Assembly: GCA_937906345.1 (NCBI GenBank)
Contig: CALCXY010000061.1
Span: forward strand, 1 to 32,859
Reading direction: 5' to 3'
DNA: 32,859 nucleotides
Origin: Candidatus Woesearchaeota archaeon
Lineage (GTDB): Archaea; Nanobdellota; Nanobdellia; Woesearchaeales; CALCXY01
A program made the translations under genes and the position numbers. Positions 7,973 to 30,299 of the stretch are shown here, one piece after another. Numbering within the stretch: position 1 is the first letter of the stretch; each line of letters starts with the position of its first letter. The notes beneath the pieces were generated by a model. That model was not told where the DNA came from and ran no database searches. It saw nothing but the letters and a program-made list of their open reading frames with translations.

Positions 7973-8062
7973 ATGATAGAATGGCATAAGCAGAATAAAA
8001 TTCAAGTTGATTTCAATAATTTTTCTGGGAAAAATTCCCTTCTCATCAACTGCCGAAAATAG
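7973..8062 (+). CDS. Possible 29-residue leaderless small gene
   Basis: An ATG at 7973 opens a 29-codon frame (MIEWHKQNKIQVDFNNFSGK...). A TATA-like box (ATTTAAATAC, 7941-7950) is centred 28 nt upstream, the spacing used by other genes here. It overlaps the 3' end of the convergent Ntn-hydrolase gene, and the coding potential cannot be judged at this length. It may instead be an antisense transcript. Confidence 0.2.
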   Translation: MIEWHKQNKIQVDFNNFSGKNSLLINCRK

Positions 8063-9477: not shown

Positions 9478-9603
9478 TTTATCAAAGAAGGGAAATTTCA
9501 TGCGTATTTATAAAATTATGCTATACTGAAAGAATTTCTGGAATAACCAAAAAAAAGGAATGTTTTCAAAGGAGAATTATAATAGGGGAAAAAGTTAATA
9601 AAA

Positions 9604-12714: not shown

Positions 12715-14400
12715 ATGCAATTCTTAGGTAAAAACATCAGTGGAAAATACACAATACCTTCAGGAATTATAACAGTATCATTAGATGTTTTAGAAGAAAT
12801 AGCTAAAATTCCACAAATTGGAGTGTTAACAACAAAGAGTGTTGGTCCTGTTGTAAGAGAAGGAAATCCAGAACCTGTTTACGCACAAATTAACAAAGAC
12901 AAATTTACAAACGCAGTAGGCTTACCAAATCCAGGAGCAGAATATCTTGCAGAAGAACTCAAAAACCTTAAACTACCAGAAGATAAATTCTTATTAGTTT
13001 CAATTTTAGGAGGAACACCAGAAGAATTCAAAAATGTAGCAAAACTAGTAGAACCTTATGCAGACGGATTAGAACTAAATTTCTCTTGCCCTCACGCAGA
13101 GGGTTTAGGGCAAGCTATTTGCTCATCCCCAGAAATTGCAATATCATACGTAAAAGCAGTCCAAGAAGTAACAAACAAACCGCTTTTAGCAAAATTATCA
13201 CCTAACATTGACAATATCAAAGAAGTTTCTAAAGCTTTAATTGAAGCAAATATTAATGGATTTACAGCTATTAACACAGTTGGTCCTGAAGAAAACAAAG
13301 AACCAATCTCACAAAAACCAGTCCTATCACATAAAACAGGAGGTATCTCTGGTAACTGTATTAAAGATATTGGAGTGCAAAAAGTTAAAGAAATTAAAGA
13401 AGCATGTCAAGAATTAAACAAAGACTTACCAATCATTGGAATGGGAGGAATATCTTCTCAAAGTGATATAAAAGAATACGAAGAAGCAGGAGCAACTATC
13501 TTAGGAATAGGAACTGCATTAACTGGCATGTCTACAAAGGATATACACTATTTCTTCCAAAATATTGAAAATCCTAGCTTTGAATTTTCAAAAATTAAAG
13601 AAACTACAATGCAATTTGAAGAACTAACACTAAAAGAAACAAAAACCTTAGCAGATGATTTAATTATTCAAACCTTTGACAAACCAATAAAAAATACACC
13701 TGGACAATTTAATTTTCTTTGGATTCCAGGATTAATGGAAAAACCATTCTCACCTGCAACAATTAATCCAGCTTCTTTTGCTATTAGAGTTATAGGGCCT
13801 TTCACTCAAGGATTAAAATCATTAAAACCAGGAGATAAAGTTATGATTCGAGGCCCTTATGGAAACGGATTTACTGTAAAAGACGACAAATCACTCCACT
13901 ACTGCCTTATTGGAGGAGGAACAGGCATTGCACCATTATACTACCTAACTCAAGAACTATCAAAAAACATACCAAAAGAACAAATTCATGTTTTCTTAGG
14001 AGGAAGATCTAAAAATCAAATTTATTTAACAACTGAATTTAAAGCAATAGCAAACGTTTACATCTCTACTGATGATGGAAGTGAAGGCTTTAAAGGATTT
14101 GTTACACAATTATTTGAAGACTTTATAAAAAATAACAATCATAAATTCTACCACTACATTTGTGGTCCAGAAATTATGATGAAAAAAACATTTGATATTG
14201 CAAAACAATCAAATTTTGAAGATATTGAAGCATCTATGGAAAGATACATGAAATGTGGTGTTGGTATTTGTGGTATTTGCTCTATGGATGGTTCTAGAAC
14301 CTGTGTTGATGGAACAGTTTACAAAGAAAAATTCCTCTCAAATTCAAAGTGTTTTGGAATTTCTCATAGAAAAAAGACTGGTGAATTAGAGAAGTATTAA
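12715..14400 (+). CDS. pyrD: Fused dihydroorotate dehydrogenase (class 1B) and PyrK-type electron-transfer subunit
   Basis: Residues 1-295 are a class 1 dihydroorotate dehydrogenase (dihydroorotate to orotate, FMN): TKSVGPVVREGNPEP, NAVGLPNPGAEYL, catalytic Cys125 in LNFSCPHA, LLAKLSPN, and the phosphate-binding IGMGGISS and GIGTALTG. Residues about 300-561 match PyrK: FAD-binding (TPGQF, NPASFAIRVIGPFTQGL), NAD-binding GGGTGIAPLYYL, and a four-Cys [2Fe-2S] site (KCGVGICGICSMDGSRTC). In bacteria PyrDB and PyrK are separate chains of one heterotetramer and pass electrons to NAD+. Here they are one continuous frame with no frameshift. The promoter resembles that of pyrC, the preceding pathway step. 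Confidence 0.92.
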   Translation: MQFLGKNISGKYTIPSGIITVSLDVLEEIAKIPQIGVLTTKSVGPVVREGNPEPVYAQINKDKFTNAVGLPNPGAEYLAEELKNLKLPEDKFLLVSILGGTPEEFKNVAKLVEPYADGLELNFSCPHAEGLGQAICSSPEIAISYVKAVQEVTNKPLLAKLSPNIDNIKEVSKALIEANINGFTAINTVGPEENKEPISQKPVLSHKTGGISGNCIKDIGVQKVKEIKEACQELNKDLPIIGMGGISSQSDIKEYEEAGATILGIGTALTGMSTKDIHYFFQNIENPSFEFSKIKETTMQFEELTLKETKTLADDLIIQTFDKPIKNTPGQFNFLWIPGLMEKPFSPATINPASFAIRVIGPFTQGLKSLKPGDKVMIRGPYGNGFTVKDDKSLHYCLIGGGTGIAPLYYLTQELSKNIPKEQIHVFLGGRSKNQIYLTTEFKAIANVYISTDDGSEGFKGFVTQLFEDFIKNNNHKFYHYICGPEIMMKKTFDIAKQSNFEDIEASMERYMKCGVGICGICSMDGSRTCVDGTVYKEKFLSNSKCFGISHRKKTGELEKY

Positions 14401-14714
14401 GGCAATAAAATTAATTTCTTACCTTCAACACTCCACTCCAATTGCTGTCCATCTTTTAAATTCTCAGACTCCATAATAGCTATAGGAACAGTTACCACAT
14501 TACTCTTTCCAACTTTTCTTAACTTGACTTTTAATGCATTTTTCTTCCTTGCTTTTTCAATATTCAAGGCTTTTTGTGCATCTTCTGGATGAATAAGTTC
14601 TTCTTTACACTTTGAACATACCCACCCTCTTACTTCTATTCCTTTCCACTTCAATTGGGTTTTCTTCATCATTCCCTTACATTCACATTTTAATTGCAGT
14701 TTTTCAAGATCCAT
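14397..14714 (-). CDS. Antitoxin fusing a YgiT-type zinc finger with an AbrB-like domain
   Basis: Residues 1-50 form a MqsA/YgiT-like zinc knuckle: C10-x-C12 and C33-x2-C36, with GWVCSKCKEELIHPEDAQKA matching the conserved W-x-C-x2-C-(G/E)E tail of that family. Residues 60-105 read as an AbrB/MazE-like strand-turn (LRKVGKSNVVTVPIAIMESENLKDGQQLEWSV). In bacterial MqsA an HTH follows the finger, so the DNA-binding part has been swapped here. It overlaps the toxin gene by 11 nt and comes second in the operon, as is usual for MqsRA. Its stop overlaps the convergent pyrD stop. Confidence 0.75.
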   Translation of the reverse strand: MDLEKLQLKCECKGMMKKTQLKWKGIEVRGWVCSKCKEELIHPEDAQKALNIEKARKKNALKVKLRKVGKSNVVTVPIAIMESENLKDGQQLEWSVEGKKLILLP

Positions 14715-14985
14715 TTTTTTTAAATTTTTTAGTAAGTGTGAATTTTCCTACATGAATAAGCTTAAAGTAGTTTCCCATATCAACAATTACAACATTGATT
14801 ATTTTAGTTTTTTTTATTATGCCTTTCTCTATAATATTCTTCTTCCTTTTTCTAATTGAAAAACCATTTTCCAATATTTTTGGAATCTCTGACAAATTTA
14901 GGTTGATATTACTTAATTCATTCAAAGCTTGTTTTGTTGGAATAATATTTTTGCCTTTAAAAGTGAAAATCATTTCATTCACCAT
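14704..14985 (-). CDS. DUF4258/MqsR-like toxin
   Basis: This 93-residue basic protein ends in a strand series (GIIKKTKIINVVIVDMGNYFKLIHVGKFTLTKKFKK) typical of DUF4258-type proteins, RelE/MqsR-fold ribonucleases found beside YgiT zinc-finger antitoxins. The first half (TKQALNELSNINLNLSEIPKILENG) holds two helices. The expected basic residues are present, but the active site cannot be fixed by eye. The context with the zinc-finger/AbrB antitoxin is the strongest argument. A TATA box (15012-15022) lies 32 nt upstream of ATG 14985. A Met at 14973 is an alternative start. Confidence 0.7.
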   Translation of the reverse strand: MVNEMIFTFKGKNIIPTKQALNELSNINLNLSEIPKILENGFSIRKRKKNIIEKGIIKKTKIINVVIVDMGNYFKLIHVGKFTLTKKFKKNGS

Positions 14986-15139: not shown

Positions 15140-15886
15140 TTATTCAGGAACATTTTTAATATCATCAAAAAGAAATCTTAATTCTCTTTGTAATATTTGA
15201 ATAGATTCTAACATATTTTCATGAACACCATGTAACTCTTTCAAAGCTGTTGCCAAATGAGTAATAAACTCATAAAGATTCATTCTTGGAGGCAATTCAG
15301 GTATCTTATGAGGAATAAAAATTTTTATAACCTCTGGAATAGTTACTTTAATACGTAATTGATGATGATGTTCAAGACTTTCTATTTCATGTTCAAGTTC
15401 TTCTTCCCTTGTTGTTGTAAGATGATATAATTGAACAATAGCATCTACACCTTCATGCCATAGATCATATATTCCAAGCAATCTAATAATGTATTCTTGA
15501 TATGCTAAATTTTTTGAATTTTTTTTATAATTTTCAAATAATTTATCTAAAAATTCTCGTTGCGAAGGAAAAGCCCCAAAATCAAAAGCACCTCTTTCAA
15601 CTGTAAGCCTTGAAGCATTAATTTCACCATTATCCTTAAGGTCTACACCAAAAAATGTGTCTTCTCTTGTTTTTTTAATTTGTTTCTGGCCAAAACGAGG
15701 ATCAAATGGATCATCAACAAACTGAATCTTCTTAAACAAATGAAGATTATTAATAATATTCTCATTCCAATCCCCAGAAGGTAATTTACTTGGATCAGCA
15801 TCACACTCACAAAGTGCAATCCATTGTTCTCTACTTACTTTCCCTATAGGTTCAGGCATATCATAATGTTCTTGAAATATACTCAT
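15140..15886 (-). CDS. Unknown soluble protein with coiled-coil or helical C-terminus
   Basis: The start at ATG 15886 gives 248 residues. An ATG at 15919 would place the promoter-like TTTTTAAACTTA inside the gene, so I prefer 15886, 26 nt downstream of it. The N-terminal half is mixed and acidic (QWIALCECDADPSKLPSGDW, FVDDPFDPRFGQKQI). The C-terminal half is helical with a His/Glu-rich coiled-coil segment (TREEELEHEIESLEHHHQL), and the last 35 residues form another heptad-like helix. There is no signal or membrane segment and no family is recognised. It follows the gene at 15926 by about 40 nt on the same strand. Confidence 0.6.
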   Translation of the reverse strand: MSIFQEHYDMPEPIGKVSREQWIALCECDADPSKLPSGDWNENIINNLHLFKKIQFVDDPFDPRFGQKQIKKTREDTFFGVDLKDNGEINASRLTVERGAFDFGAFPSQREFLDKLFENYKKNSKNLAYQEYIIRLLGIYDLWHEGVDAIVQLYHLTTTREEELEHEIESLEHHHQLRIKVTIPEVIKIFIPHKIPELPPRMNLYEFITHLATALKELHGVHENMLESIQILQRELRFLFDDIKNVPE

Positions 15887-15925
15887 AGAATAAAATTTAT
15901 ATTTTAAGTTTAAAAACATTACTAT

Positions 15926-16402
15926 CTATAACTTTATTAATTCTGAAAAAAAAGTTTCATAAGGACGTCTACTGAATTTATTTAAAAGTCTAGAAGGAGG
16001 AGGATTTGCACCTATTGATCTAGCATATGTTTTAGAATAATCACTAACAGTTTCTCCTAGATTTAAAGTTCGACTACCTATCTGATTATGAACTTCTTCA
16101 TCTGATGTTGCTATTATAGAATCAATTACTTCTCCCCATAAAGGATCAACATCTTTACTTGAACCACTATTATTCAAAACATGTAACCTAGCATAAGAAT
16201 CAACAGGATCATCCATCCAATTTTGTTTTAATTTTTCAATTTGTCCAAGACGGGATTTTTTTAAACGTCTACTTTCTCGAACCAACATAGGACCAAAACC
16301 TACAACTGTAATAACCGTACTTAATCCTCCAAGTATACTCACAACAGTCCAAAAAGGATCTTGTTGATAATAGTTCATAATTTGATTTATTATTCCTGCC
16401 AT
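15926..16402 (-). CDS. Unknown single-span membrane protein
   Basis: In this 158-residue protein, residues 17-39 (FWTVVSILGGLSTVITVVGFGPM) span the membrane. The following Arg/Lys cluster (RESRRLKKSRLGQIEKLKQNW) puts the 115-residue C-terminal part in the cytoplasm. That part is helical and of unknown family. A TATA box (TTTATAAA) centred near 16429 is 27 nt upstream of the ATG. It is divergent from pyrC, and the two promoters share about 80 bp. Confidence 0.6.
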   Translation of the reverse strand: MAGIINQIMNYYQQDPFWTVVSILGGLSTVITVVGFGPMLVRESRRLKKSRLGQIEKLKQNWMDDPVDSYARLHVLNNSGSSKDVDPLWGEVIDSIIATSDEEVHNQIGSRTLNLGETVSDYSKTYARSIGANPPPSRLLNKFSRRPYETFFSELIKL

Positions 16403-16486: not shown

Positions 16487-17713
16487 ATGATCTTAGAAGG
16501 CACATTCGTAACACACGAAAAAACATTCAAAACTCAAGTTAAGTTTGATTCAGAAACAGGTTTAATTCAAGAAGTTGGAGAAAACATAGGAAATGCAGAC
16601 TTAACTTTTGATTCAAACCATAAGATATTCCCAGGTTTTATAGATATTCATGTTCATTGTAGGGAAGATGTTTCTCAAACACAATCCTATAAAGAAGATT
16701 TTGTTACAGCATCTCAAGCAGCTATTATGGGAGGAGTAACAGGTATGATGGATATGCCAAATAACCCAAAACCTCCAATAGATGATAAATCTTACTACGC
16801 TAAAAAAGAACTCACAAAAAAAGGAATTATTGACATTCTCTTATACGCAGGAATTGGCCCAAACACAAACCCCTTATCATTTAAAGTTCCTTACAAAGCC
16901 TACATGGGTCCAAGTGTTGGTGATCTCTTTTTTGACAAAGATGAAAAAATAAACAACATCATACCAAAATATAAAGATAATTTTATTTCATTTCATTGTG
17001 AATCCGCAGACTTATTAAAAGAAAATGAGAATCAACCTACTCACGAAGAAAAACGTCCAGAAGTATGCGAAGTAAACGCTATAACTCACGCAATGAAAGT
17101 GTGTAAAGAAAACAATATTAGGATGAATGTTGCACATTTATCAACTAAAGCTGGTTTATTAGAAGTGCTAAGGGGCAAAAAAGAAGGTCAAACAGTTACA
17201 AGCGAAGTTTGCCATCATCATCTTTATTATACTGAAGATACAAAAGACAAATCAACTAACCCAAGTTTCTTACAAATGAACCCACCCCTAAGAAAAGAAG
17301 AAGATAGAAAATTTCTTTTTGAACAATTAAAACTAGGAAATGTTGATTATCTTACAACAGATCATGCACCTCACACTTTAAAAGAAAATAAAGAGGGAAT
17401 ATCAGGTTTGCCTTTATTAGACACATATGGATTATTTGTAACTTGGCTTTTAAAACAAGGAATTAATGAACAAATAATAGCAAAAGTATGTTCTTATAAT
17501 CCTGGTAAACTCTTTGGAGAGTTTCGAGGTGAAAAATTTGGTGAAATTAAAGAAGGTTTTATTGCATCTTTCACTATTTTAAATCTATCAAAAGAACATA
17601 CAGTAAAACAAGAAGACATAAAATCAAAATGCGCTTGGAGCCCATTTGAAGGAACAACATTCCCTGGATCTGTTGTTATGACTATAGTTAGAGGAAAACA
17701 TTACAAAATCTAA
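16487..17713 (+). CDS. pyrC: Dihydroorotase
   Basis: This 408-residue enzyme cyclises carbamoyl-aspartate to dihydroorotate, the third step of UMP synthesis. It has the amidohydrolase metal site of class I dihydroorotases: H55-x-H57 in FIDIHVHCRED, the Lys expected to be carboxylated in VPYKAYMG, His in ISFHCES and VAHLSTKAG, and Asp in LTTDHAPHTLKENK. The substrate-loop Gly segment SGLPLLDT is present as well. Length is normal for the family (about 400-430). The gene ends with its stop overlapping by 4 nt the stop of the last gene of the minus-strand MoxR-vWA operon. Confidence 0.93.
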   Translation: MILEGTFVTHEKTFKTQVKFDSETGLIQEVGENIGNADLTFDSNHKIFPGFIDIHVHCREDVSQTQSYKEDFVTASQAAIMGGVTGMMDMPNNPKPPIDDKSYYAKKELTKKGIIDILLYAGIGPNTNPLSFKVPYKAYMGPSVGDLFFDKDEKINNIIPKYKDNFISFHCESADLLKENENQPTHEEKRPEVCEVNAITHAMKVCKENNIRMNVAHLSTKAGLLEVLRGKKEGQTVTSEVCHHHLYYTEDTKDKSTNPSFLQMNPPLRKEEDRKFLFEQLKLGNVDYLTTDHAPHTLKENKEGISGLPLLDTYGLFVTWLLKQGINEQIIAKVCSYNPGKLFGEFRGEKFGEIKEGFIASFTILNLSKEHTVKQEDIKSKCAWSPFEGTTFPGSVVMTIVRGKHYKI

Positions 17714-18945
17714 TTTCCTGGAAAACGTTCATTTAATTGTCTAGCTTTTCTAAGATTAACATTTAACACTTGATCAACTACCTTCATTTCATCATTCAAA
17801 GGTTTAAGTTTTTTCATCTCATCATACATACTACTAAACATAATTACTCTAACAGGTCCATTTCTAGAAATAGCATACTTTCTAGACATTTCACTCTGAG
17901 GAATTTCAACCATACTTACACGAGGATTATACCTTGTCAAGTGTTTAACTTTATCAGGATGAGCTAATACATATTTAGTTACTGCATCAATTACTTTATC
18001 TCGGTCATACCTATGATCTTGTCCACCTTTACTAAGTTTATAAAATTCATCAATATATTCACCTTCATCAGTAATACTATAATATTTCCTATCTGGATCA
18101 GTTATGTAAATTGCTTTATCTTGATTTCTAACACCTCTTTGAAGACTTGCCATCTTAATATTAAGATCAACCTTTTTATCAATCATCTCCTCTCTAATTT
18201 GAGCAAACCTTTCCCTAGCCTCTTCTTTAATATCTCCATAAATATCATAAATATCTTCAAAGTAAGGTTTTTCTAAAGCATCTGGATTAGTTTGAGCTCT
18301 GTAGAGAGAAAATCCTGTTACAGCAATGATAGCAGCAGCTGTTAACATGATGTATTTGATAAAACTTGGTTTTACAATAGGTAAATGAACTCTTTTTTTA
18401 CCTTTACCAAATAAATGAGGAACTACTCTTGGTAAATAATGATCCATAAAAGTTACTCTCGACCTTTGTTCTACTTTTTCAGGATCAAGATTAATATCAT
18501 CTAAACCCTTTTCTTCAAAATCAGGTATATCATCAAAGGTTATTCTATGCAATTCATTTTCAGGAATAATTTTCCCTTCTTCTCCAGGTTGAATCATTGA
18601 AGGAGGTGCAAGTCTATTCCCTTCAGCATCCATCCCTAAAAAATCATAGGGTTTTATATCATAAATAAAAAAATCGTTTTCCAATTTTTTTAGATCAACA
18701 TGATGGACACTATTGCCATCTTTGGTTAAATAATAAAGCTTATCATCCCTATAATCAATATATTTTATGGCCCTTATCCATAGAGTGTTATTTTTTAAGG
18801 AAAGATTTCTTTTATTAATTAAACATAAACCTGTGATAGAATCTTCAAGAGAAGTTAATTGCATAAATGTAGTTGAATGAATAGCTTCCTCTTGAGGTAC
18901 ATTAAATTTAGATGCACTTTCCAAAATATCTTTTAATGTTGTCAT
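17710..18945 (-). CDS. Operon gene 7: single-span membrane protein with large domains on both sides
   Basis: Residues 1-190 are soluble and probably cytoplasmic, mixed alpha/beta with strand-rich parts (LWIRAIKYIDYRDDKLYYLTK) and an acidic stretch (DDIPDFEEKGLDDINLDPEKVEQ). After a basic patch (KGKKRVHLPIVKPSFIKY), residues about 197-215 (YIMLTAAAIIAVTGFSLY) span the membrane. The outside part (216-411) is charged and helical. No family is recognised. Its ATG overlaps the stop of gene 6 by 4 nt, so translation is probably coupled. It closes the seven-gene operon. Confidence 0.7.
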   Translation of the reverse strand: MTTLKDILESASKFNVPQEEAIHSTTFMQLTSLEDSITGLCLINKRNLSLKNNTLWIRAIKYIDYRDDKLYYLTKDGNSVHHVDLKKLENDFFIYDIKPYDFLGMDAEGNRLAPPSMIQPGEEGKIIPENELHRITFDDIPDFEEKGLDDINLDPEKVEQRSRVTFMDHYLPRVVPHLFGKGKKRVHLPIVKPSFIKYIMLTAAAIIAVTGFSLYRAQTNPDALEKPYFEDIYDIYGDIKEEARERFAQIREEMIDKKVDLNIKMASLQRGVRNQDKAIYITDPDRKYYSITDEGEYIDEFYKLSKGGQDHRYDRDKVIDAVTKYVLAHPDKVKHLTRYNPRVSMVEIPQSEMSRKYAISRNGPVRVIMFSSMYDEMKKLKPLNDEMKVVDQVLNVNLRKARQLNERFPGN

Positions 18946-19937
18946 TTAAACTTCTCCACATATTTAATTTTATATTTATCAAAATATTTTTGAAATTTTA
19001 ATTGTAAATTTTGAGCTTTAGTATTCCTAACATCCCAATCACTAGTATCATCTCCTAAACTTTTATCTCCATTGATAATATCAACACCTAAATCAGTTAC
19101 AGGATGTATTAAACAATAGGAATCAGGCCTAATCATAATTCTATGACCTTGTGCTTTAGCTAATTCACCATCTGGTCTTCTTGTATTATGTAAATTATAA
19201 TCTACATACAGCCTAAAATGATTCATATTTACTTCAACTACTCCTTCTACATTAGGAAACCATTCATTAGATCCTTCAAATGGATTAAATCCGCCACCAA
19301 TAGCATAGGTTTCAACTCCATTAGTGCTTGTTTTTTTAATTACATGTAAAGCATGTCCTGCACCAGTTGAAACTGCTCCAGTGAAAACATCAATATCTGA
19401 TTTTTCATAAGTCATTAATAAAACATAATGATCAAATTCATCTCCAGTATTTGGATCTTTAACTCTAGGATACCAATGTGCAAAACTTGATGAAGTACCT
19501 TCAAAACAGCTAAAAGGACCCTTGTCAACTTTACCATCAACAATCATTTGACAAAAATCATCTATAGTATGTAAACCCTTTCCTGAATTTTCTCCACCTT
19601 CACTTAAGGGTCCTAAAAATCCATTATTATACAACCAAATATTTTTTCTATGCCTTTTAATATCTTCAAAATCCTCTCCTACTTGCTCTAAATGTTGATC
19701 AACAGTTGGATTTTCATAAAGTTGTCTTCTATTTCCCATTAGATTGTATAATTTTAATTCACCATACTGCATTAATGTCAAACATCCTAAATTATTCCTT
19801 CTTGGAGGCATATTTGAAGTAGCAACTTCTTTAAGAAAAATAGCAGGTATTAAACTAAGTGCAGTCACCCAAAAGATTGGTTTTTTAACTAGTGAAATAT
19901 AATCCCCAACTATTTCTCTCACTTTTTTAAATCTCAT
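18942..19937 (-). CDS. Operon gene 6: membrane-anchored ectodomain, possibly transglutaminase/papain-like
   Basis: Positive residues at the N-terminus (RFKKVREI, VKKP) followed by a span (IFWVTALSLIPAIFL, 21-35) place the 295-residue remainder outside. Within it, C144 in GPFSCFEGTSSSFAHWYPRV and H195/H198 in GAGHALHVIKKTSTNGVETYAIGGG have the order and spacing of a Cys-His pair in transglutaminase- or papain-like folds (Cys at a helix start, then GHa-x-V and a strand). The usual Asp after the His strand is not evident. This assignment is weak. It overlaps genes 5 and 7 by 4 nt each. Confidence 0.65.
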   Translation of the reverse strand: MRFKKVREIVGDYISLVKKPIFWVTALSLIPAIFLKEVATSNMPPRRNNLGCLTLMQYGELKLYNLMGNRRQLYENPTVDQHLEQVGEDFEDIKRHRKNIWLYNNGFLGPLSEGGENSGKGLHTIDDFCQMIVDGKVDKGPFSCFEGTSSSFAHWYPRVKDPNTGDEFDHYVLLMTYEKSDIDVFTGAVSTGAGHALHVIKKTSTNGVETYAIGGGFNPFEGSNEWFPNVEGVVEVNMNHFRLYVDYNLHNTRRPDGELAKAQGHRIMIRPDSYCLIHPVTDLGVDIINGDKSLGDDTSDWDVRNTKAQNLQLKFQKYFDKYKIKYVEKFK

Positions 19938-21700
19938 TTAGTATACATCTCCATTATTTTCTTAGCTTCAGCATGAATTCTATGAACATCACTTTTTTTA
20001 ATGTAAGGACTATCACTTGGAGCTAAATTCACGACTTCTAAACCTTCTTTACCCCTAGCTTGCACCTCATTATGAGCATTACGTGTCCTCATATGAGGAA
20101 TAGTATTAACCCAGACTAAAGTATCTTTAAATTTCGTTGTACCATCTGGTTGATCTTCTTTTCTATTTTCTAAAGCAAGATTTACACAATCAGCAAAACT
20201 AGTGTAAGTAATATCATCATCCACTATAGGAACAACTAAAGTTGGACCAAGATCATTATTATTATATTTAGTGATATACAACATAAATAAATTTTTCATA
20301 GCTGTATTATTATCATTTGTACTTCCTCTATGATAAAGCACTTTAGTAAGCATTACCTCTAATGAATTATCCCTATAAATCCTATCAGCTGACACTTTAT
20401 CTAGAGGATGATTTCCATTTCCCATTGTGAATCCCATATTTGAAGCCATTCTATATAATTGTGTCATTAATAAATATCCACCATGAATTTTGTTTTCAGG
20501 ATCGCTTAATATCTCACTTGGATCTCCATGTGAACCTGATACATCATATAAAATTAATATTTCCCCTAAATTAGATGCAATTTGAGGTTTATCTGTTTCA
20601 GTAGCCTCATCTGATAAAGAATACGGCGGCAAGACTAATCTTGGCTTTGGATAAACTAATGGCACTTCTCCAGTAGTAGGTAAAGGTAAATTTGCCTCTA
20701 CTGGAATATCTTTTGTAAGTTTCCAATAGGCTTCTTTAACTCTTTTATTCATTTCTTCTAGTGTACCATCTGCCCCACTACCAATATTTTTTTGTAACTC
20801 TTTAAAATCTTGTGAACCATCTTTTTGACTAGGATTATTTTCACCAGTTTCAGAAGGCATTTTACCATCTGCACTTGGATCCCATCTTCTTTCTCCATCT
20901 GGAGTAAACTCTCCAGGAACAGCACGTCCATGACTTCCTCTTCTTGGATTTGTATTTGGAACTCCAGAACCAGTTTTAGGTAAAGCACCCATAAGTAATG
21001 CGTATAAAGTTCCAGCAATTAATAAACCAGCAATTGCTGCTTTTCCTTGTCTATATACTTCATTGCTATATCTTTGTTTCATTAATCTACTAAAAGAACC
21101 ATAACCTAATTGATCAGCAGCTTTATTATTTTCAAAAGCTGTTCGTATATATTCCTCTACCCCAAAATCATTTTCTCTAGTAATTATTTGAGGCAATTCT
21201 AAATTATCTGTAAATATTTCAGTATTAATTGTTCTATTATCTCTAACAAAAGATCCAATTTTTCTTAATCCTCTTAATTGCCTCATTCCATAAGAAAAAG
21301 GTTGCTTAAAAAGACTTACTTTAGTTTTATACTCTCTTCTTAGATCTCCTTGTAATTGTCTAATTTCACTTAATAATTCCCATTTTAATGTAAATGCAGG
21401 GGCATTAGCCTCTGAACCAGCAGGAAGTGTAAACTCATAAAGATTCTTAGGTGAAATTGTGGTATTTCCTTCCTCTGTTTTATACCTAAATCTATTTTTA
21501 TGAGTGATAGTATTTTCTTTAGAACTTGTCATTAATCCATTATGTCTAATTTGATGACCAGATCCTAATAATTCTTCCAATTCTCCAATTTGATCATCAA
21601 CTAATTCTTTTTCAGTTCTTACTAAATATTTCAATAATGATCGAGCATCAGCTACATTTTTCACTTGTTCTAACACTTTGTTTCTATCTATGTGTGCCAT
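19934..21700 (-). CDS. Operon gene 5: membrane-anchored vWA protein with intact MIDAS motif
   Basis: In this 588-residue protein, residues 1-210 are cytoplasmic by charge and of unknown fold. Residues 221-240 (AAIAGLLIAGTLYALLMGAL) span the membrane. Residues 241-300 are a Gly/Pro/Ser-rich linker. From about 378 a von Willebrand factor A domain follows: ILILYDVSGSHGDPS with D386-x-S388-x-S390 of the MIDAS, the third residue in HRGSTNDNN (T461), and an acidic turn PIVDDDITY (D494-D496). vWA proteins with a MIDAS bind partners through Mg2+ and are the usual clients or adaptors of MoxR ATPases such as gene 1. It starts 1 nt after gene 4. Confidence 0.8.
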   Translation of the reverse strand: MAHIDRNKVLEQVKNVADARSLLKYLVRTEKELVDDQIGELEELLGSGHQIRHNGLMTSSKENTITHKNRFRYKTEEGNTTISPKNLYEFTLPAGSEANAPAFTLKWELLSEIRQLQGDLRREYKTKVSLFKQPFSYGMRQLRGLRKIGSFVRDNRTINTEIFTDNLELPQIITRENDFGVEEYIRTAFENNKAADQLGYGSFSRLMKQRYSNEVYRQGKAAIAGLLIAGTLYALLMGALPKTGSGVPNTNPRRGSHGRAVPGEFTPDGERRWDPSADGKMPSETGENNPSQKDGSQDFKELQKNIGSGADGTLEEMNKRVKEAYWKLTKDIPVEANLPLPTTGEVPLVYPKPRLVLPPYSLSDEATETDKPQIASNLGEILILYDVSGSHGDPSEILSDPENKIHGGYLLMTQLYRMASNMGFTMGNGNHPLDKVSADRIYRDNSLEVMLTKVLYHRGSTNDNNTAMKNLFMLYITKYNNNDLGPTLVVPIVDDDITYTSFADCVNLALENRKEDQPDGTTKFKDTLVWVNTIPHMRTRNAHNEVQARGKEGLEVVNLAPSDSPYIKKSDVHRIHAEAKKIMEMYTK

Positions 21701-21701
21701 T

Positions 21702-22319
21702 TTATTTTGGTTGTATACCTCTCACAGGTAATTTAAAGTAAAATGTTCCTTTTGAAGGTGTTTTAAAATACACATCTAATTCAGTAGGTTTTTCTCCTGG
21801 TCCAGTAAGTTTTGGAGTAATTTTCACTCGTGCCATTAAGATATTTGTTTCTGGATCTACCCAATAATTAGGAGTTAATAACTGCCCATCATACACTATT
21901 TTTTGTTCAGCAGGAGGTTGAGGTAGCTGCCATTGTAAAAAATAATCTTTTCCAGCTTGTAAATCAGGAGCAGCTTTTCTAGATCCATCTCTTTTTCTAT
22001 GTATTGAATGTGTTAAAGTAACATCATGTTCAAATCCTTCATAAGCAGTTGGATATACTGGAATAGTAGAATTTTCTTTAGTAAAATCTATAGTACTAGC
22101 TGCATAAATTTGCATAAACGCATAATCTTGTATTTTAGTTTGATAATTAGGAGTAATAATTCTTCTTGGTCTTCCATATTGTAATTCTTGTCGTGTTAAT
22201 ACATCTTGACCTTTATTACTTGGAGCTCTCAGTGAATACGTTCCTAAAATAGATGCAACTAATGCACTTAATATTAATCCTGTCTGGATTATTCTTGAGG
22301 TTCTTCTTCCTAAATTCAT
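21702..22319 (-). CDS. Operon gene 4: membrane-anchored beta-rich ectodomain
   Basis: The N-terminus NLGRRTSR is followed by a span (IIQTGLILSALVASILGTYSL, 10-30), so the 175-residue rest is outside. It is strand-rich (AFMQIYAASTIDF, EHDVTLTHSIHRKR, KDYFLQWQLPQPPAE, ILMARVKITPKL, TELDVYFKTPSKGTFYFKLPVRG) and looks like one or two immunoglobulin-like sandwiches. In bacterial Bat operons BatD has beta-sandwich domains in a similar place, which is an analogy, not a demonstrated homology. Overlaps gene 3 by 4 nt. Confidence 0.7.
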   Translation of the reverse strand: MNLGRRTSRIIQTGLILSALVASILGTYSLRAPSNKGQDVLTRQELQYGRPRRIITPNYQTKIQDYAFMQIYAASTIDFTKENSTIPVYPTAYEGFEHDVTLTHSIHRKRDGSRKAAPDLQAGKDYFLQWQLPQPPAEQKIVYDGQLLTPNYWVDPETNILMARVKITPKLTGPGEKPTELDVYFKTPSKGTFYFKLPVRGIQPK

Positions 22320-22879
22320 TTTTTCTTTACCTTGATATTAAAATTTGTTGGTGATGTTCCATCTTTGTATTGTATTTGTAAATGTATTTTATATTCTTCA
22401 ATTGGTTTTCCATCTGCAAGTAATGTTTGCCAAGATTGGTTCCCAATTGTATAGGGCACTCCATTTTTTATTTTTTCAGTAAATTCAACTTGTCTTGATG
22501 CTCCATTTATTGATATAACCATTGAATCAACTGTATGTTTTGGTTTTTCAACATACGCATCAAAAATAACTTTACCTAAATCTCCTGAATACTCATAATC
22601 ATTTCCTTCTCTGTATGATCTTGAAGCTTTGAATTGTTTTCTTCCATGATTTGCTGATTGCACAACCAATTCTGTATTAAATTCCTCATTTTCAGTTTCA
22701 CTTAATTCTTGTTCTAGGCCATCCTGTGCTGCTATTGGAGTTCCTCTCCATTCTTGAGCATCTTGAACTCCTCCTTTGTTTAGGCAAGTGAATCCTAAAG
22801 TCAATAATAAACCAATGGAACCTACCCATGTTAATGAATGTCTCCATGAAAATTCAAATGGAAAATTATCATAATTCAT
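22316..22879 (-). CDS. Operon gene 3: membrane-anchored beta-rich ectodomain
   Basis: This protein has 187 residues. A short N-terminus with an Arg precedes a span (SLTWVGSIGLLLTLGFTCL, 15-33). The outside part starts with an acidic linker (EQELSETENEEFNTE) and continues with strands (LVVQSANHGRKQFKAS, KVIFDAYVEKP, SMVISINGASRQVEF, KIHLQIQYKDG, FNIKVKKK), again sandwich-like. The Cys32 context (GFTC) is not a good lipobox. Genes 3 and 4 have the same plan and similar size, and may be distant relatives. Overlaps both neighbours by 4 nt. Confidence 0.7.
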   Translation of the reverse strand: MNYDNFPFEFSWRHSLTWVGSIGLLLTLGFTCLNKGGVQDAQEWRGTPIAAQDGLEQELSETENEEFNTELVVQSANHGRKQFKASRSYREGNDYEYSGDLGKVIFDAYVEKPKHTVDSMVISINGASRQVEFTEKIKNGVPYTIGNQSWQTLLADGKPIEEYKIHLQIQYKDGTSPTNFNIKVKKK

Positions 22880-23727
22880 TGTGATTCCTCCATAATTTTA
22901 CTATTTAACTCAATAATATGAGCTGGTAATTCAAGAAAATCTTCAGGAGTAACTATTACATGATTATTTGTAAGAGGTTCTGTTACATCATTATCATTTT
23001 TAGCAATATAAATAATTCCAACTCGAATATCCTGTTCTCTATACTCATCTATTAATATCTCTGCCTTTTCCCTATTTCTTCTTCCTTGAATAGGACCTGT
23101 AACAATATATAACCATGACTCTTCAGCATTACCTCCAAATTGATCTTCTAATAATTCTAAAGCAGTATCTAATCTTTGGTGTACTCCAATTCCTTTTTTC
23201 ATTACTCCATTTATAGTTGCATTGTATTCAAAATCTTGATCTTGAATAACCCATAAATCTTTATCAAATGCTCCAATCCATGTTTCTGTATTAGGTAAAT
23301 CATGCATTGCATGATATAAACTCTCTACTGTAAATTCGATTGGAAAACCACTACTAAGTTTTCTCACTGAAGCACAATTTGAATATAATAATCCTAATTC
23401 AATTTTCTTTTTTTGATAATTTGGTTCAAGTTTTTGTTCAGGTAAAATAGGTTCATTTAAACGATCTCTAACTAAATTTTCTGCTAAAACAGGAACATCT
23501 ATTTCATTCCCACTTAAACTTGAATCTAAATAAGAATGAACTATTTCACTAAATTGCCCTCTTAACTGTTCTCCAGTTTGTTCAGCTTCAGAACGTATTA
23601 AATGATGTGTAGGTCGAGTTGTTGCTTGAATTACACTCTGAGAAAGATTTAAGTATCTCGTAGCATAAGCTATACCTGCTACACCTAATCCTATTGCTAA
23701 ATTGAAACCAATTATTGCTGATGACAT
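22876..23727 (-). CDS. Operon gene 2: membrane-anchored vWA-like protein with degenerate MIDAS
   Basis: This protein has 283 residues. Residues 3-22 (SAIIGFNLAIGLGVAGIAYA) span the membrane. The Arg right after it suggests that the rest lies in the cytoplasm, on the side of the ATPase. Residues 108-250 follow a vWA fold: IELGLLYSNCASV stands where the D-x-S-x-S strand should be, LDTALELLEDQFGG is the usual helix, WLYIVTGPIQGRRN replaces the TDG strand, and DIRVGIIYIAKND is the last core strand. The MIDAS residues are lost, so metal-dependent binding is unlikely. This could be a structural partner of the intact vWA in gene 5. Confidence 0.7.
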   Translation of the reverse strand: MSSAIIGFNLAIGLGVAGIAYATRYLNLSQSVIQATTRPTHHLIRSEAEQTGEQLRGQFSEIVHSYLDSSLSGNEIDVPVLAENLVRDRLNEPILPEQKLEPNYQKKKIELGLLYSNCASVRKLSSGFPIEFTVESLYHAMHDLPNTETWIGAFDKDLWVIQDQDFEYNATINGVMKKGIGVHQRLDTALELLEDQFGGNAEESWLYIVTGPIQGRRNREKAEILIDEYREQDIRVGIIYIAKNDNDVTEPLTNNHVIVTPEDFLELPAHIIELNSKIMEESQ

Positions 23728-23757
23728 TTTATCAAAATATAATTAAAATAATATTAA

Positions 23758-25023
23758 TTATTTTAAATCAATATTATTTATAGTACCCCAATGACTATGT
23801 AAAACCTCATGAATAATTGCTTTACAATCCTCTGCAAATTGTTTTACAACTCGTTTTCTAGTTAAATTTTGTTGTAAAGTTAAAGGGACATAAATAATAT
23901 CTTCTACTACATTTCTATAATCCCTTTCAGTCATTTGAGAATGATAAAGAACATTCATTCGCTCCATCCAATCTTTAGCTGTATCAGGAACTTTAGTCCA
24001 TGCAGGTTTATGAAAATGTTTAGACCCTACACCATCCCCATTTGTATCAGGTTCTCTAAATGTAGTATTTTTCCAAGCTCCTTTGACACTTCCCATTTCA
24101 TCATAAGATTCTCGGAGTCTCCTAAAATATCCTTTTATAGGAGAACCCCCATCTTTATGTAGATTTACATATTTTTTCATACAAATATAAAGATCAGATG
24201 CAAAATCATTTAATGCTTTATCTAAATCAGCAGATCTTACCTCAGGTTTTAACCTAACAGGTTTATATTTATCTGGTAATTCAGGTTTTACAGTTGTTAC
24301 ACCCCTATTATAATTTCTTAAATCTGTTTTATATTGTAAAACATCGTTTAATAAATCTCTATCAGTTTGATCTACAAATCTTACCGCAACAAATCGTCTT
24401 TTAAACGCTGGATCTAATGGTGTTGGAACATAAGTCATATTTCCACTCACAATCAATTTATGGTTTAACCAATCTAAGGCTACAACTCCTTCATGAGTAT
24501 CGAAATCTTCATCTTTTCCTTGGAAAATATTATATAAGGATCGAAGTGTTTTTGGAGTACAATTTTGTACCTCATCAATAAACATTAATCCTTTAAATAA
24601 TTCAGCAGTAGTATAATGGCTAGGTCTATCTACAATTCTTTGTAGACCCTCTTTAGTTACTTCAGTTCCTGTTCTTGTAAGAAAATCTCTTAATTTTCGA
24701 TCTTCACTACCTGTAATTTTTGATCGATGAATTCCTAATTCATGTGCCAAATTTTCAGCAACCATAGTTTTTCCTGTATTAGTTTCTCCATCTAATAATA
24801 TAGGAATTTTAAAATCTGATGTACTGTTAACAAGATACCAATAGACCCTATCAGCAACTGATAATGTTTCTGTTTTATCTCTATCTGTTGGATGAACATC
24901 TAATTTTTGGAAATAAGGAAAAGTATTTTCTTCTGGAACATATCTTGGTTCAATAATTCCTGAGTTATGTACCCAATCTAACCATCTCTGAGTAGGTCCT
25001 CTAGTATCTTGCTTTTTTGCCAT
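23758..25023 (-). CDS. Operon gene 1: MoxR-type AAA+ ATPase
   Basis: This 421-residue cytoplasmic ATPase has Walker A G79-ETNTGK-T86, Walker B LMFIDE (146-151), sensor 1 N195 in LIVSGNMTYV, and the arginine finger in DPAFKRRF (203-211). These match the MoxR/CbbQ/GvpN clade, whose members remodel or load metal into vWA-domain partners. The C-terminal 200 residues form a helical lid with a family-specific insert (about 310-345). The gene heads the operon. Transcription would start near 25061 from a TATA box (25084-25092), and an SD-like GGTGGT lies 6 nt before the ATG. The last 30 nt before gene 2 contain no terminator. Confidence 0.88.
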   Translation of the reverse strand: MAKKQDTRGPTQRWLDWVHNSGIIEPRYVPEENTFPYFQKLDVHPTDRDKTETLSVADRVYWYLVNSTSDFKIPILLDGETNTGKTMVAENLAHELGIHRSKITGSEDRKLRDFLTRTGTEVTKEGLQRIVDRPSHYTTAELFKGLMFIDEVQNCTPKTLRSLYNIFQGKDEDFDTHEGVVALDWLNHKLIVSGNMTYVPTPLDPAFKRRFVAVRFVDQTDRDLLNDVLQYKTDLRNYNRGVTTVKPELPDKYKPVRLKPEVRSADLDKALNDFASDLYICMKKYVNLHKDGGSPIKGYFRRLRESYDEMGSVKGAWKNTTFREPDTNGDGVGSKHFHKPAWTKVPDTAKDWMERMNVLYHSQMTERDYRNVVEDIIYVPLTLQQNLTRKRVVKQFAEDCKAIIHEVLHSHWGTINNIDLK

Positions 25024-25040
25024 TCTATTACCACCATATT

Positions 25041-25056
25041 ACTCCTAAATAGGAGT
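25041..25056 (-). promoter_or_regulatory. Palindrome in the leader of the MoxR-vWA operon
   Basis: ACTCCTA and TAGGAGT form a perfect 7-bp inverted repeat around AA. It starts about 5 nt after the predicted RNA start (TATA box minus-strand GATTTATAAAGGG, 25083-25093). It could be an operator, or a hairpin whose GGAG strand mimics a ribosome site next to the real GGTGGT at 25030-25035. Confidence 0.45.
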
Positions 25057-25765: not shown

Positions 25766-25996
25766 ATGGTATCTGTAACATTAGCAGTTCCAAAGGAACT
25801 CAAACAAAAAATGGATAAATTCCCTGAAATGAACTGGAGTGAAATTGCAAGGCAGGCATTTAATGAGAGGATTGCTGATTTGCAATTTATTAACAAAATA
25901 AAATCTAAGAGTACATTAACAGAGGCTGATGCTCTTAGGATGGGAAAAGCTGTTAGCAAAGCTGTAAGTGATAGATATAGAAAATTAGCTGGATAA
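25766..25996 (+). CDS. vapB: Ribbon-helix-helix antitoxin (VapB-like)
   Basis: This 76-residue protein starts with an RHH domain: the DNA-contacting strand VSVTLAVPKELKQKM, then FPEMNWSEIARQAFNERI. The C-terminal helix (TLTEADALRMGKAVSKAVSDRYRKLAG) would block the PIN toxin. A clear SD, GGAGG at 25753-25757, fixes the start. The toxin ATG follows its stop by 1 nt. It differs in family from the AbrB-type VapB at the left end of the window. Confidence 0.85.
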   Translation: MVSVTLAVPKELKQKMDKFPEMNWSEIARQAFNERIADLQFINKIKSKSTLTEADALRMGKAVSKAVSDRYRKLAG

Positions 25997-25997
25997 G

Positions 25998-26399
25998 ATG
26001 AAAATTATAGTAGATGCAAATATCCTATTCGCAGCTTTAATCAAAGAAAATGTAAGTTATGATATACTCTACGAGAAAAGATTTAATTTCTTTACTCCAG
26101 AATATATATTCACAGAATTCACTAAGCATAAAGAAGAGATATTGTCAAAAACTGATCGTACAAGTGAGGAATTTTATAGAACCCTCAAAATTTTAAAAAG
26201 AAAAATATCAATAATTTCATTAAAAGACATAACTCCTTTCTTATCTGAAGCAGAAAAAACCTCTCCGGATAAAGATGACATTGTTTATATTGCTAGTGCA
26301 TTTAAGCTAAATTGCCATATCTGGTCAAATGACAAAAATCTAAAAGAAAAGCAAAATAAAATAAAAGTTTATAATACCGAAGAGATTATGAAATTGTAA
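25998..26399 (+). CDS. vapC: PIN-domain toxin (VapC-like)
   Basis: This 133-residue PIN nuclease carries acidic residues D6 (IIVDANILFAAL), E40 (PEYIFTEF), D91 to D94 (TSPDKDDIVYIA) and D112 (IWSNDKNL), in the usual order and spacing. It resembles the stand-alone archaeal PIN group in which catalysis of RNA cleavage needs Mg2+ held by these residues. It is coupled to the RHH antitoxin and immediately followed by the repeated DUF431 gene end. Confidence 0.85.
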   Translation: MKIIVDANILFAALIKENVSYDILYEKRFNFFTPEYIFTEFTKHKEEILSKTDRTSEEFYRTLKILKRKISIISLKDITPFLSEAEKTSPDKDDIVYIASAFKLNCHIWSNDKNLKEKQNKIKVYNTEEIMKL

Positions 26400-26483: not shown

Positions 26484-27101
26484 TCATTCCTCAAGTAGAC
26501 TAAACTCTCTCAATAGCAAAAAAGGTGCGTTTCTATCAGGAGTTAATTCCACATTTTTAGGTAAACGGTCTAAAGCAACAGTCAAAGACCCAAATTCAAT
26601 AGAAGAGGGTGAATTTTGCGAAAACAACATTTTTATTTCATAGATTGCCCTGCCAGGAGTTTCATCCAAATTAGTATAAGGAAAAGGTTTAATACCCATA
26701 ACTGTAAGAAAATCTGGAGGCAATTTTTGATCACGTCTCCAAATTCTACTTTCTGTTAATTCATTCACCATATAAATATCAGGGATGGTAATGGATGTAT
26801 CTACTGATTCAGGCATTCCAAACTCTAAGCGTATCCTTTGTCCGCAAAGGCTTTCACCAAAAAAATTTGCAAAAACTTCATTATATTGATCTTGACTAAA
26901 ATTCCTTATAAAAGAAAAATATTTTACCTCTTTTTCCAAAAACCGATCCCATCCCTCCTGTCCTAAGACAGGGATTAGTCGAAAAGTATAAGAACCCTCT
27001 GGATCTTGAATTGATCGATCTATGTGATAAACATTTGAAAATTTTTTAATGTCATCATCTCCAGGAATAACTACACAGCTTTCAGTTTGTTGAACTGACA
27101 T
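26484..27101 (-). CDS. Unknown soluble protein
   Basis: This 205-residue protein has no signal or membrane segment. It has a mixed composition with strands (YTFRLIPVLG, RIRLEFGMPES, SITIPDIYMV, AIYEIKMLF) and few helices, and ends FLLLREFSLLEE. I recognise no family and no active-site motif. A TATA-like TTATAAAAC centred near 27124 is 23 nt upstream of the ATG, so it is probably expressed on its own. It is divergent from the PEP mobile-domain gene. Confidence 0.6.
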   Translation of the reverse strand: MSVQQTESCVVIPGDDDIKKFSNVYHIDRSIQDPEGSYTFRLIPVLGQEGWDRFLEKEVKYFSFIRNFSQDQYNEVFANFFGESLCGQRIRLEFGMPESVDTSITIPDIYMVNELTESRIWRRDQKLPPDFLTVMGIKPFPYTNLDETPGRAIYEIKMLFSQNSPSSIEFGSLTVALDRLPKNVELTPDRNAPFLLLREFSLLEE

Positions 27102-28955: not shown

Positions 28956-29603
28956 CTAATAATACCTTTTACAACTCTTAGAACAAGTATCATAATAATC
29001 ATCATTGATAGGATCATACTTCTCATTACACTCTTCAGAACATCTCTTATGAATTTTATAAAGCAAATAATCTAAATAATCTCCATCATAGTGTAATGCA
29101 AACCTATCATATTTGTATCTATCATCATATCTATAATAATCATAGTATCTGTTATTATAGTAATTATCATAATACCTATGATATCTATTATCTCTGTATC
29201 TTCCATTATCATCGTATTCTTTATCTTTATATCGTTGATAATCATAATAATCTACATACCATCTTTCATCATAAGGAAATCTATCATACCTATACCTGTC
29301 ATAATAATCCCCATCATAATATCCTTGGTATGAATAATAACCCCTATAATCATCATAGTCTCTATCATAGTATTCTGATCTTCTTACTTTACTAAGATGA
29401 CTTGATAAAAGATCATAATCTGGTTGATCAATATAATTATTTGAATTTGTACTTTTCCATTGTCTTTGAGTAGATTCTTCAACTTCGTAAGTAGGTTCTT
29501 CAACAGTTTCAACTGGATCATCATAAACAACATAAGTAATTGCATTAACACTAGCAATAACTAAAAGAAACATTAGAATGAAATTAAATATTCTTCCCCC
29601 CAT
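28956..29603 (-). CDS. Secreted or anchored Tyr/Asp/Arg-rich low-complexity protein
   Basis: I prefer ATG 29603 (215 residues) to the GTG at 29612, since a TATA-like GTTTATTAAAG lies 28 nt upstream. Residues up to about 21 form a signal anchor (FNFILMFLLVIASVNA), followed by TYVVYDDP. The middle is an extraordinary run of Tyr, Asp and Arg (for example RGYYSYQGYYDGDYYDRYRY). About 47 of the residues are Tyr, more than one in five. The end has two Cys pairs (CSEEC and CSKSC) and finishes KRYY. It shares its plan with the next upstream gene, and the two form an operon. Possibly a surface adhesive or cross-linked coat protein, but this is inference. Confidence 0.75.
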   Translation of the reverse strand: MGGRIFNFILMFLLVIASVNAITYVVYDDPVETVEEPTYEVEESTQRQWKSTNSNNYIDQPDYDLLSSHLSKVRRSEYYDRDYDDYRGYYSYQGYYDGDYYDRYRYDRFPYDERWYVDYYDYQRYKDKEYDDNGRYRDNRYHRYYDNYYNNRYYDYYRYDDRYKYDRFALHYDGDYLDYLLYKIHKRCSEECNEKYDPINDDYYDTCSKSCKRYY

Positions 29604-29625
29604 AATAATCACATGTCTTAAATCT

Positions 29626-30189
29626 TTAATAAACTTCCTGTTCAGGACACTCAGCTACACATCTAGCTATATAATTACTTTCTTTCTCATTATAAAAATC
29701 TAAACACAATCTAAATGCTTGAGTTCCTTCTTCATAATTATCAAAACACTTATCAAAGTCTAATTCAAAATCTCTGTCACAAAAAGTATCGCATCTCTTA
29801 ACTCTATGTTCATTTTCTTGATCATAAAAATCTTTACATTCACCATCAAGAGGATGATAAGGATCATTATAATATTCTCTACAAATATTTGATTTTCTAA
29901 AATAACCTCTTCTTGAATCATAATCATCATATCGATCTGAATAACCATGTCTATAACCATATCTTCTATAATCAGAATTAAAAGTATCAACACTAGGTCC
30001 TGTTACCCATTGCCTATTAGCGTTTCCCCAATAATCAGAGCCATCTATAGTATAACTAACCTCTCCACCAATAATTCCTCCAGTATAAGGGAAAACTTGT
30101 TGAGGCTCTTCATAGATAACATACGTTAGAAAAGTAGCTCCTAGTAAAACAGCAACTAATACCAGACCATAATATGCCTTATCCCCCAT
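29626..30189 (-). CDS. Secreted or anchored Tyr/Arg-rich paralogue with Cys pairs
   Basis: The start at ATG 30189 (187 residues, 26 nt from the TATA-like ATTTAAAAAC) puts the signal anchor at the N-terminus (YYGLVLVAVLLGATFL), followed by TYVIYEEP, nearly the same as TYVVYDDP in its neighbour. A Tyr/Arg/Asp-rich middle (DYRRYGYRHGYSDRYDDYD) is shorter than in the paralogue. The C-terminal half carries eight Cys, including CDTFC and CVAEC, and resembles an alpha-helical disulphide repeat (CFDNYEEGTQAFRLCLDFYN). A TTG at 30234 would extend it and is rejected. No family is known to me. Confidence 0.7.
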   Translation of the reverse strand: MGDKAYYGLVLVAVLLGATFLTYVIYEEPQQVFPYTGGIIGGEVSYTIDGSDYWGNANRQWVTGPSVDTFNSDYRRYGYRHGYSDRYDDYDSRRGYFRKSNICREYYNDPYHPLDGECKDFYDQENEHRVKRCDTFCDRDFELDFDKCFDNYEEGTQAFRLCLDFYNEKESNYIARCVAECPEQEVY

Positions 30190-30299
30190 GAAAGGTGAAA
30201 ATATATTGTCATTTAAAAACTTTTGCTTAAACAATTATTTGATAGTAAAAAAATAATTACACCATAAAATATATAAACATACAAATTGTTTAAAATTGC

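Follow-up and report, generated by a model that had tools for sequence, protein, structure and literature searches.

A seven-gene archaeal operon that joins a MoxR-clade-like AAA+ ATPase to single-pass membrane proteins, one of them with a MIDAS-like motif

The stretch of DNA analyzed here (the window) is the whole of contig C61, 32859 bases long, from a 77%-complete genome of a Candidatus Woesearchaeota archaeon. A proteasome-alpha-like gene in an order-mate and ATPases of MCM length throughout the order point to a place among the archaea. Seven open reading frames (ORFs) on the minus strand, g1 to g7, span positions 17710–25023 and form one compact operon. They encode an AAA+ ATPase (ATPases associated with diverse cellular activities) and six membrane proteins, of which g5 carries the motif of a metal ion-dependent adhesion site (MIDAS). 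The coordinates in the ORF list agree with the original prediction of seven successive minus-strand genes with 4-nt overlaps or gaps of 1–30 nt. The overlaps occur at four junctions (g2/g3, g3/g4, g5/g6 and g6/g7), and the gaps are 30 nt between g1 and g2 and 1 nt between g4 and g5. At its far end, g7 overlaps a convergent pyrC-like gene by 4 nt (17710–17713). A Shine–Dalgarno (SD)-like stretch lies 5′ of most of the starts but not of that of g2. In codon usage and in GC content by codon position, all seven match the housekeeping genes of the window, which argues that they are real and native-looking genes.

The Pfam scores of g1 were above the cut-off for PF00004 (AAA, 31.6 bits) and PF07728 (AAA_5, 30.7 bits), and the AAA+ core motifs were all found: Walker A, Walker B, sensor 1, and the arginine finger (Table 1). 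A NorQ/CbbQ/GvpN-type model was absent among its matches in Pfam and NCBIfam. The best match in the Protein Data Bank (PDB) was the AAA part of midasin (2.3e-7). The MoxR clade is defined by a helix-2 insert (PMC7159879). When aligned with the MoxR proteins of relatives, the stretch of g1 from the second strand to Walker B is collinear with them, and the Walker A lysine and the Walker B aspartate are 65 residues apart. As read from the sequence, both the alignment before Walker B and this distance are compatible with the insert. The nearest relatives of g1 that we found are 400-aa AAA_5 ATPases in two genomes of the same class, G407 and G451 (best E value 3.6e-8, 28% identity over approximately 110 residues), and they adjoin a MIDAS-bearing protein of approximately 590 aa. 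At these loci (L088 4158–9997 in G407 and L090 4642–9200 in G451), the MIDAS-bearing protein has an HExxH stretch, and the pair adjoins a gene for a reverse transcriptase (PF00078 in G407), along with short proteins resembling the targets of diversity-generating retroelements. Kinship of g5 with the 590-aa proteins was considered and set aside, as the profile test was not significant.

The C-domain of g5 contains a complete MIDAS-like motif, with D-x-S-x-S (DVSGS), T, and D in order. The linker that follows the membrane span is rich in Gly, Pro, Ser, and charged residues and looks disordered. The motif also arose in 12 of 2000 shuffled g5 sequences (0.6%). Profiles of the von Willebrand factor A (vWA) domain built from relatives aligned exactly onto the DVSGS stretch, without significance. 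A deeper vWA profile placed g5 directly beneath the true vWA proteins, still at an insignificant level.

Exactly one hydrophobic span was found in each of g2 to g7, as had been predicted, and g7 has the two-sided layout proposed for it (Table 1). In both g5 and g7, approximately 200 or more residues flank the span on either side. Long N-domains without a signal favor an N-in topology. Because approximately 200 residues precede the span of g7 without an N-terminal signal, its N-domain is probably cytoplasmic and its C-domain extracytoplasmic, and its flanking charges point to the same N-in/C-out arrangement. The long N-domain of g5, also without an N-terminal signal, makes N-in the likelier orientation for this protein; its N-domain is probably in the cytoplasm and its C-domain extracytoplasmic. 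By flanking charge, g4 and g6 lean toward N-in, and g2, g3, and g5 show no clear direction.

Scans of Pfam, NCBIfam, PHROGs, and PADLOC gave no family match for g2 to g7, and sequence searches of the PDB with g2, g5, and g6 returned no match. The C-domain of g2 is possibly a degenerate vWA: in a low-confidence model its helices and strands alternate in a vWA-compatible order. The Foldseek search with this model stayed at noise level (best E value 0.05, with the VWA domain of NorD at rank 4); the top 30 of that list include the NorD VWA domain, the midasin MIDAS domain, and VWF A1 domains. The MIDAS motif is missing in g2, which has LLYSNCAS where DxSxS is expected. The suggestion that g6 is a Cys–His enzyme found no support. 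As a transglutaminase-like cysteine enzyme, it was outside the PF01841 matches in its own genome, and the profile comparison was at the level of shuffled sequences. The β-rich ectodomains assigned to g3 and g4 are plausible by eye only.

Table 1. Positions of the operon genes, their sequence motifs, and the upstream elements.
Feature	Position	Strand	Basis or description
g1, 421 aa, AAA+ ATPase, MoxR-clade-like (AAA_5), no membrane span	23758–25023	−	Pfam
g1 Walker A, GETNTGKT	24766–24789	−	motif read in sequence
g1 stretch before Walker B, aligns with MoxR helix-2 region	24592–24690	−	alignment with MoxR of relatives
g1 Walker B, GLMFIDE	24571–24591	−	motif read in sequence
g1 sensor 1, LIVSGN	24439–24456	−	motif read in sequence
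g1 arginine-finger stretch, PAFKRRF	24391–24411	−	motif read in sequence
g2, 283 aa	22876–23727	−	N-terminal transmembrane span (TM, 4–22), C-terminal α/β domain
g3, 187 aa, one TM, ectodomain-like, no family	22316–22879	−	
g4, 205 aa, N-terminal signal-anchor-like TM, no family	21702–22319	−	
g5, 588 aa	19934–21700	−	221-aa N-domain, TM 222–240, linker, C-terminal MIDAS-bearing domain
g5 MIDAS motif 1, ILILYDVSGS	20531–20560	−	motif read in sequence
g5 MIDAS Thr loop, GSTNDNNT	20303–20326	−	motif read in sequence
g5 MIDAS Asp strand, VVPIVDDD	20213–20236	−	motif read in sequence
g6, 331 aa, one TM, four Cys	18942–19937	−	enzyme nature without support
g7, 411 aa	17710–18945	−	195-aa N-domain, TM 196–214, 197-aa C-domain
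Putative TATA-box-like element, TTTATAAA	25084–25091	−	approximately 61 nt upstream of g1 start; read from sequence
16-bp near-perfect palindrome, ACTCCTATTTAGGAGT	25041–25056	−	directly upstream of g1 SD, downstream of TATA-like box

A MoxR-clade-like AAA+ protein, a MIDAS-bearing protein, and single-pass proteins in one operon fit a remodeling or assembly machine. We favor, at a probability of roughly 45%, the reading that the operon encodes a lineage-specific, membrane-tethered AAA+/vWA-type remodeling machine for an envelope complex, perhaps in place of the Bat-type module that most relatives have. It is usual for members of this archaeal order to have MoxR–vWA operons that include membrane partners. 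In the NorQ/NorD system (kin to CbbQ/CbbO), the NorQ ring engages its vWA partner NorD, twists or stretches the NorD linker, and remodels the client (PMC13036017). NorD, at approximately 600 aa, has an N-domain followed by a disordered linker and, at the C-terminus, a MIDAS domain, whose MIDAS residues are required for client activity and dispensable for binding the ATPase (PMC9976466). The MoxR-clade-like ATPase of the operon would correspond to NorQ, and g5 has the N-domain–linker–MIDAS order of NorD (PMC9976466). It differs in that a membrane span lies between the N-domain and the linker of g5, and in having five more membrane proteins. Furthermore, there is no detectable sequence relation between NorQ/NorD and the operon, and the vWA fold of g5 is putative.

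In the favored machine, g1 would form a cytoplasmic hexamer and act on g5 as NorQ does on NorD, its ATP-driven motion twisting or stretching the linker of the vWA partner. The N-domains of g5 and g7 would serve as cytoplasmic handles, with the C-domains extracytoplasmic. The MIDAS domain of g5 would hold on to a substrate by an acidic ligand; this substrate may be g3, g4, g6, or a protein of the surface. Cycles of g1 would then assemble, open, or release the envelope complex held by g5. With the MIDAS domain outside, g1 would have to make contact via the N-domain of g5 or g7 in the cytoplasm, which would amount to trans-membrane coupling; with it inside, g1 and g5 would be a membrane-anchored NorQ/NorD-like pair. 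A bolder version, which we consider quite improbable, is a new trans-membrane AAA+ machine: a MoxR-clade ring in the cytoplasm would drive the MIDAS domain on the other side of the membrane via g5 and g7, together with a set of surface proteins confined to the lineage. The transmembrane remodeling or assembly machine proposed at the outset thus fits the make-up of the operon and the two-sided g5 and g7, but two vWA folds and a g6 enzyme could not be established, and metal loading across the membrane, also proposed, is without evidence.

Several results weigh against the favored reading. The prediction of g1 as a MoxR-type AAA+ protein with all motifs was correct as to the motifs, but its score for the MoxR family of Pfam, AAA_3, was 16.9 bits against a cut-off of 27. 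Similarly, the intact MIDAS predicted for g5 is present, but the vWA fold was not borne out: calibrated profile comparisons gave no significant vWA match (hhalign probabilities of 0.8% and 5%), and the single-sequence AlphaFold2 (AF2) model of the C-domain was unusable, with a predicted local distance difference test score (pLDDT) of 39. The charges flanking the g5 span are balanced (+4/+4), which leaves the side of the MIDAS domain unsettled. For g2, the AF2 model of the C-domain was also unusable (pLDDT 46), and no significant vWA profile match was obtained, with the alignment out of register; the degenerate vWA that had been assigned to it is therefore without profile support. Finally, the searches described below gave no relatives from which conservation or covariation of g1 to g7 could be read. 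It could be that there is no AAA+/vWA system here, and that an AAA+ chaperone shares its transcript with lineage-specific membrane proteins to which it is unrelated, the DxSxS of g5 being a chance occurrence and g2 having another Rossmann-like fold. Every fold test was negative or uninformative, and g1 is closer to AAA_5 than to the AAA_3 of MoxR, as this would predict. However, the motif is expected by chance in only approximately 0.6% of proteins with the composition of g5, and the AAA_5 ATPase encoded alongside raises the prior for a vWA partner. The silence of Pfam is weak evidence, because in a relative (L088 6389–8185) a clear MIDAS protein adjoining an AAA_5 ATPase likewise goes unmatched by Pfam. 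We regard the absence of such a system as rather unlikely.

The original prediction had set the operon apart from known MoxR–vWA systems on the ground that these lack the additional proteins. This contrast was overstated. The arCOG01314-associated module of archaea has a MoxR/GvpN ATPase together with vWA, Ig-like, and membrane proteins and is a predicted secretion complex (PMC5898192). Like the operon, it is archaeal, brings an AAA+ protein together with membrane proteins, and has a predicted role at the cell surface; its vWA and Ig-like ectodomain proteins have putative counterparts here. Its DUF4350 (PF14258)/GldG-like and vWA proteins were not detected by Pfam in g2 to g7, though a remote similarity may exist. 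Order-mates carry six-gene operons arranged as vWA–vWA–1TM–3TM–MoxR–DUF58 (for example, L079 4967–12376, L082, and L084). These are likewise membrane modules around a MoxR-like ATPase, from the same archaeal order, but they have a canonical AAA_3 MoxR, recognizable VWA, BatA, and DUF58 proteins, and a different gene order. The Bat operon (MoxR, DUF58, and BatA/B/D) similarly pairs its ATPase with ectodomain proteins and with vWA proteins bound to the membrane. Here, however, g2 to g7 have no match to BatA (PF07584), VWA_2, or DUF58, g1 is not an AAA_3 protein, and each of g2 to g7 has one span, compared with three in BatA-type proteins. The theme of an ATPase with vWA and membrane proteins is thus already known; the protein families of g2 to g7 are not.

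A canonical MoxR (best AAA_3 match with E below 1e-50) was present in 51 of the 59 relatives, where it was found in Bat-type operons (MoxR–DUF58–BatA) and in the larger operons arranged as in the order-mates. The own genome has only a cytoplasmic AAA/vWA pair on contig C44, which includes the one vWA protein seen there, and a weaker second match. This distribution, and the analogous make-up of ATPase, vWA-like, single-span, and ectodomain proteins, would be expected if the operon were a fast-evolved stand-in for, or descendant of, a Bat-type or larger six-gene module that is apparently missing from this genome. The lack of any BatA, DUF58, or VWA family match in g2 to g7 and the different topology speak against this reading. 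Furthermore, the canonical module may simply be missing from an assembly of this completeness, and canonical MoxR is also missing in 8 other relatives. We judge this reading unlikely.

The search for homologues of the operon genes covered 99 relatives, 353 order-mates, and a phylum-wide sample of 371 genomes; the genomes compared all lie outside the family of the host. The homologue searches gave generic AAA+ matches and two weak, short ones to the region of g5 (L091 and L092), which look like chance when viewed in context. No operon-level relatives of g1 to g7 were found in the 353 order-mates or the 371 phylum genomes, and the AAA_5 loci read in relatives without a canonical MoxR held no hidden equivalent operon. 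Viral contigs, genome contigs, and phages yielded no relative of the operon genes searched there; the viral and genome-contig searches used exact peptides as seeds and pick up only close relatives. A plasmid collection gave only weak partial AAA matches.

Viruses are known to use MoxR/vWA pairs. In the Acidianus two-tailed virus (ATV), the pair p618/p892 serves tail development (PMC4124505). Its MoxR-type ATPase, vWA partner, and structural proteins as clients (PMC4124505) would have counterparts in the operon, the partner and clients there being putative; unlike it, the operon has no recognizable viral context, and no similarity was found. That the module came from a virus or mobile element of this kind is very improbable. 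Six of the seven genes are orphans, and toxin–antitoxin-like genes lie nearby (14397–14985 and 25766–26399, the latter pair with a PIN_2 domain protein), as one might expect of such an element. Against this, the codon usage of the operon is at least as close to that of the housekeeping genes as these are to one another, the window has no tRNA or known RNA family, and no recognizable integrase or capsid gene is among the ORFs examined. The operon also abuts the pyrC-like gene, and the peptide-seeded viral searches described above were negative within their reach.

Upstream of g1, the palindrome ACTCCTATTTAGGAGT is a possible operator or SD hairpin. A scan of the own genome for it as a regulon signal gave no second good copy, and a leader hairpin at this position was not significant (z −1.2). 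Past the convergent pyrC-like gene, and outside the operon, two more orphans (15140–16402), one of them single-span, lie on the same strand with codon usage near that of the operon. Three neighboring orphans had no usable match in the four libraries named above. The orphans at 8002–9501 and 26484–27101 have a higher third-position GC content (0.27 and 0.22) and a poorer codon fit than their neighbors and are possibly recent acquisitions. Elsewhere in the window are a membrane protein with a Bactofilin domain (PF04519; 1980–3029) and a fused dihydroorotate dehydrogenase with its electron-transfer subunit (DHO_dh, NAD-binding, and Fe-S domains; 12715–14400). A secreted-looking low-complexity protein (28956–29612) has an extremely high content of Tyr, Asp, Arg, and Asn and a Cys-containing C-terminus; the next gene (29626–30234) looks similar. 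Two adjacent sigma-54-activator-like AAA+ genes on contig C89 of the same genome (L158 39–608 and 662–1750) may stem from horizontal transfer or from contamination during binning.

MoxR/vWA chaperone pairs are widespread, and for most of them the clients are unknown. The operon is currently an orphan with a plausible mechanism, and the machine is not demonstrated. Should the MIDAS domain of g5 lie outside and the ATPase inside, an AAA+ protein would here be working across a membrane, with the cotranscribed orphans as candidates for its clients. The operon also illustrates that in a lineage of tiny archaea an entire surface module can go unrecognized by all the family libraries used.

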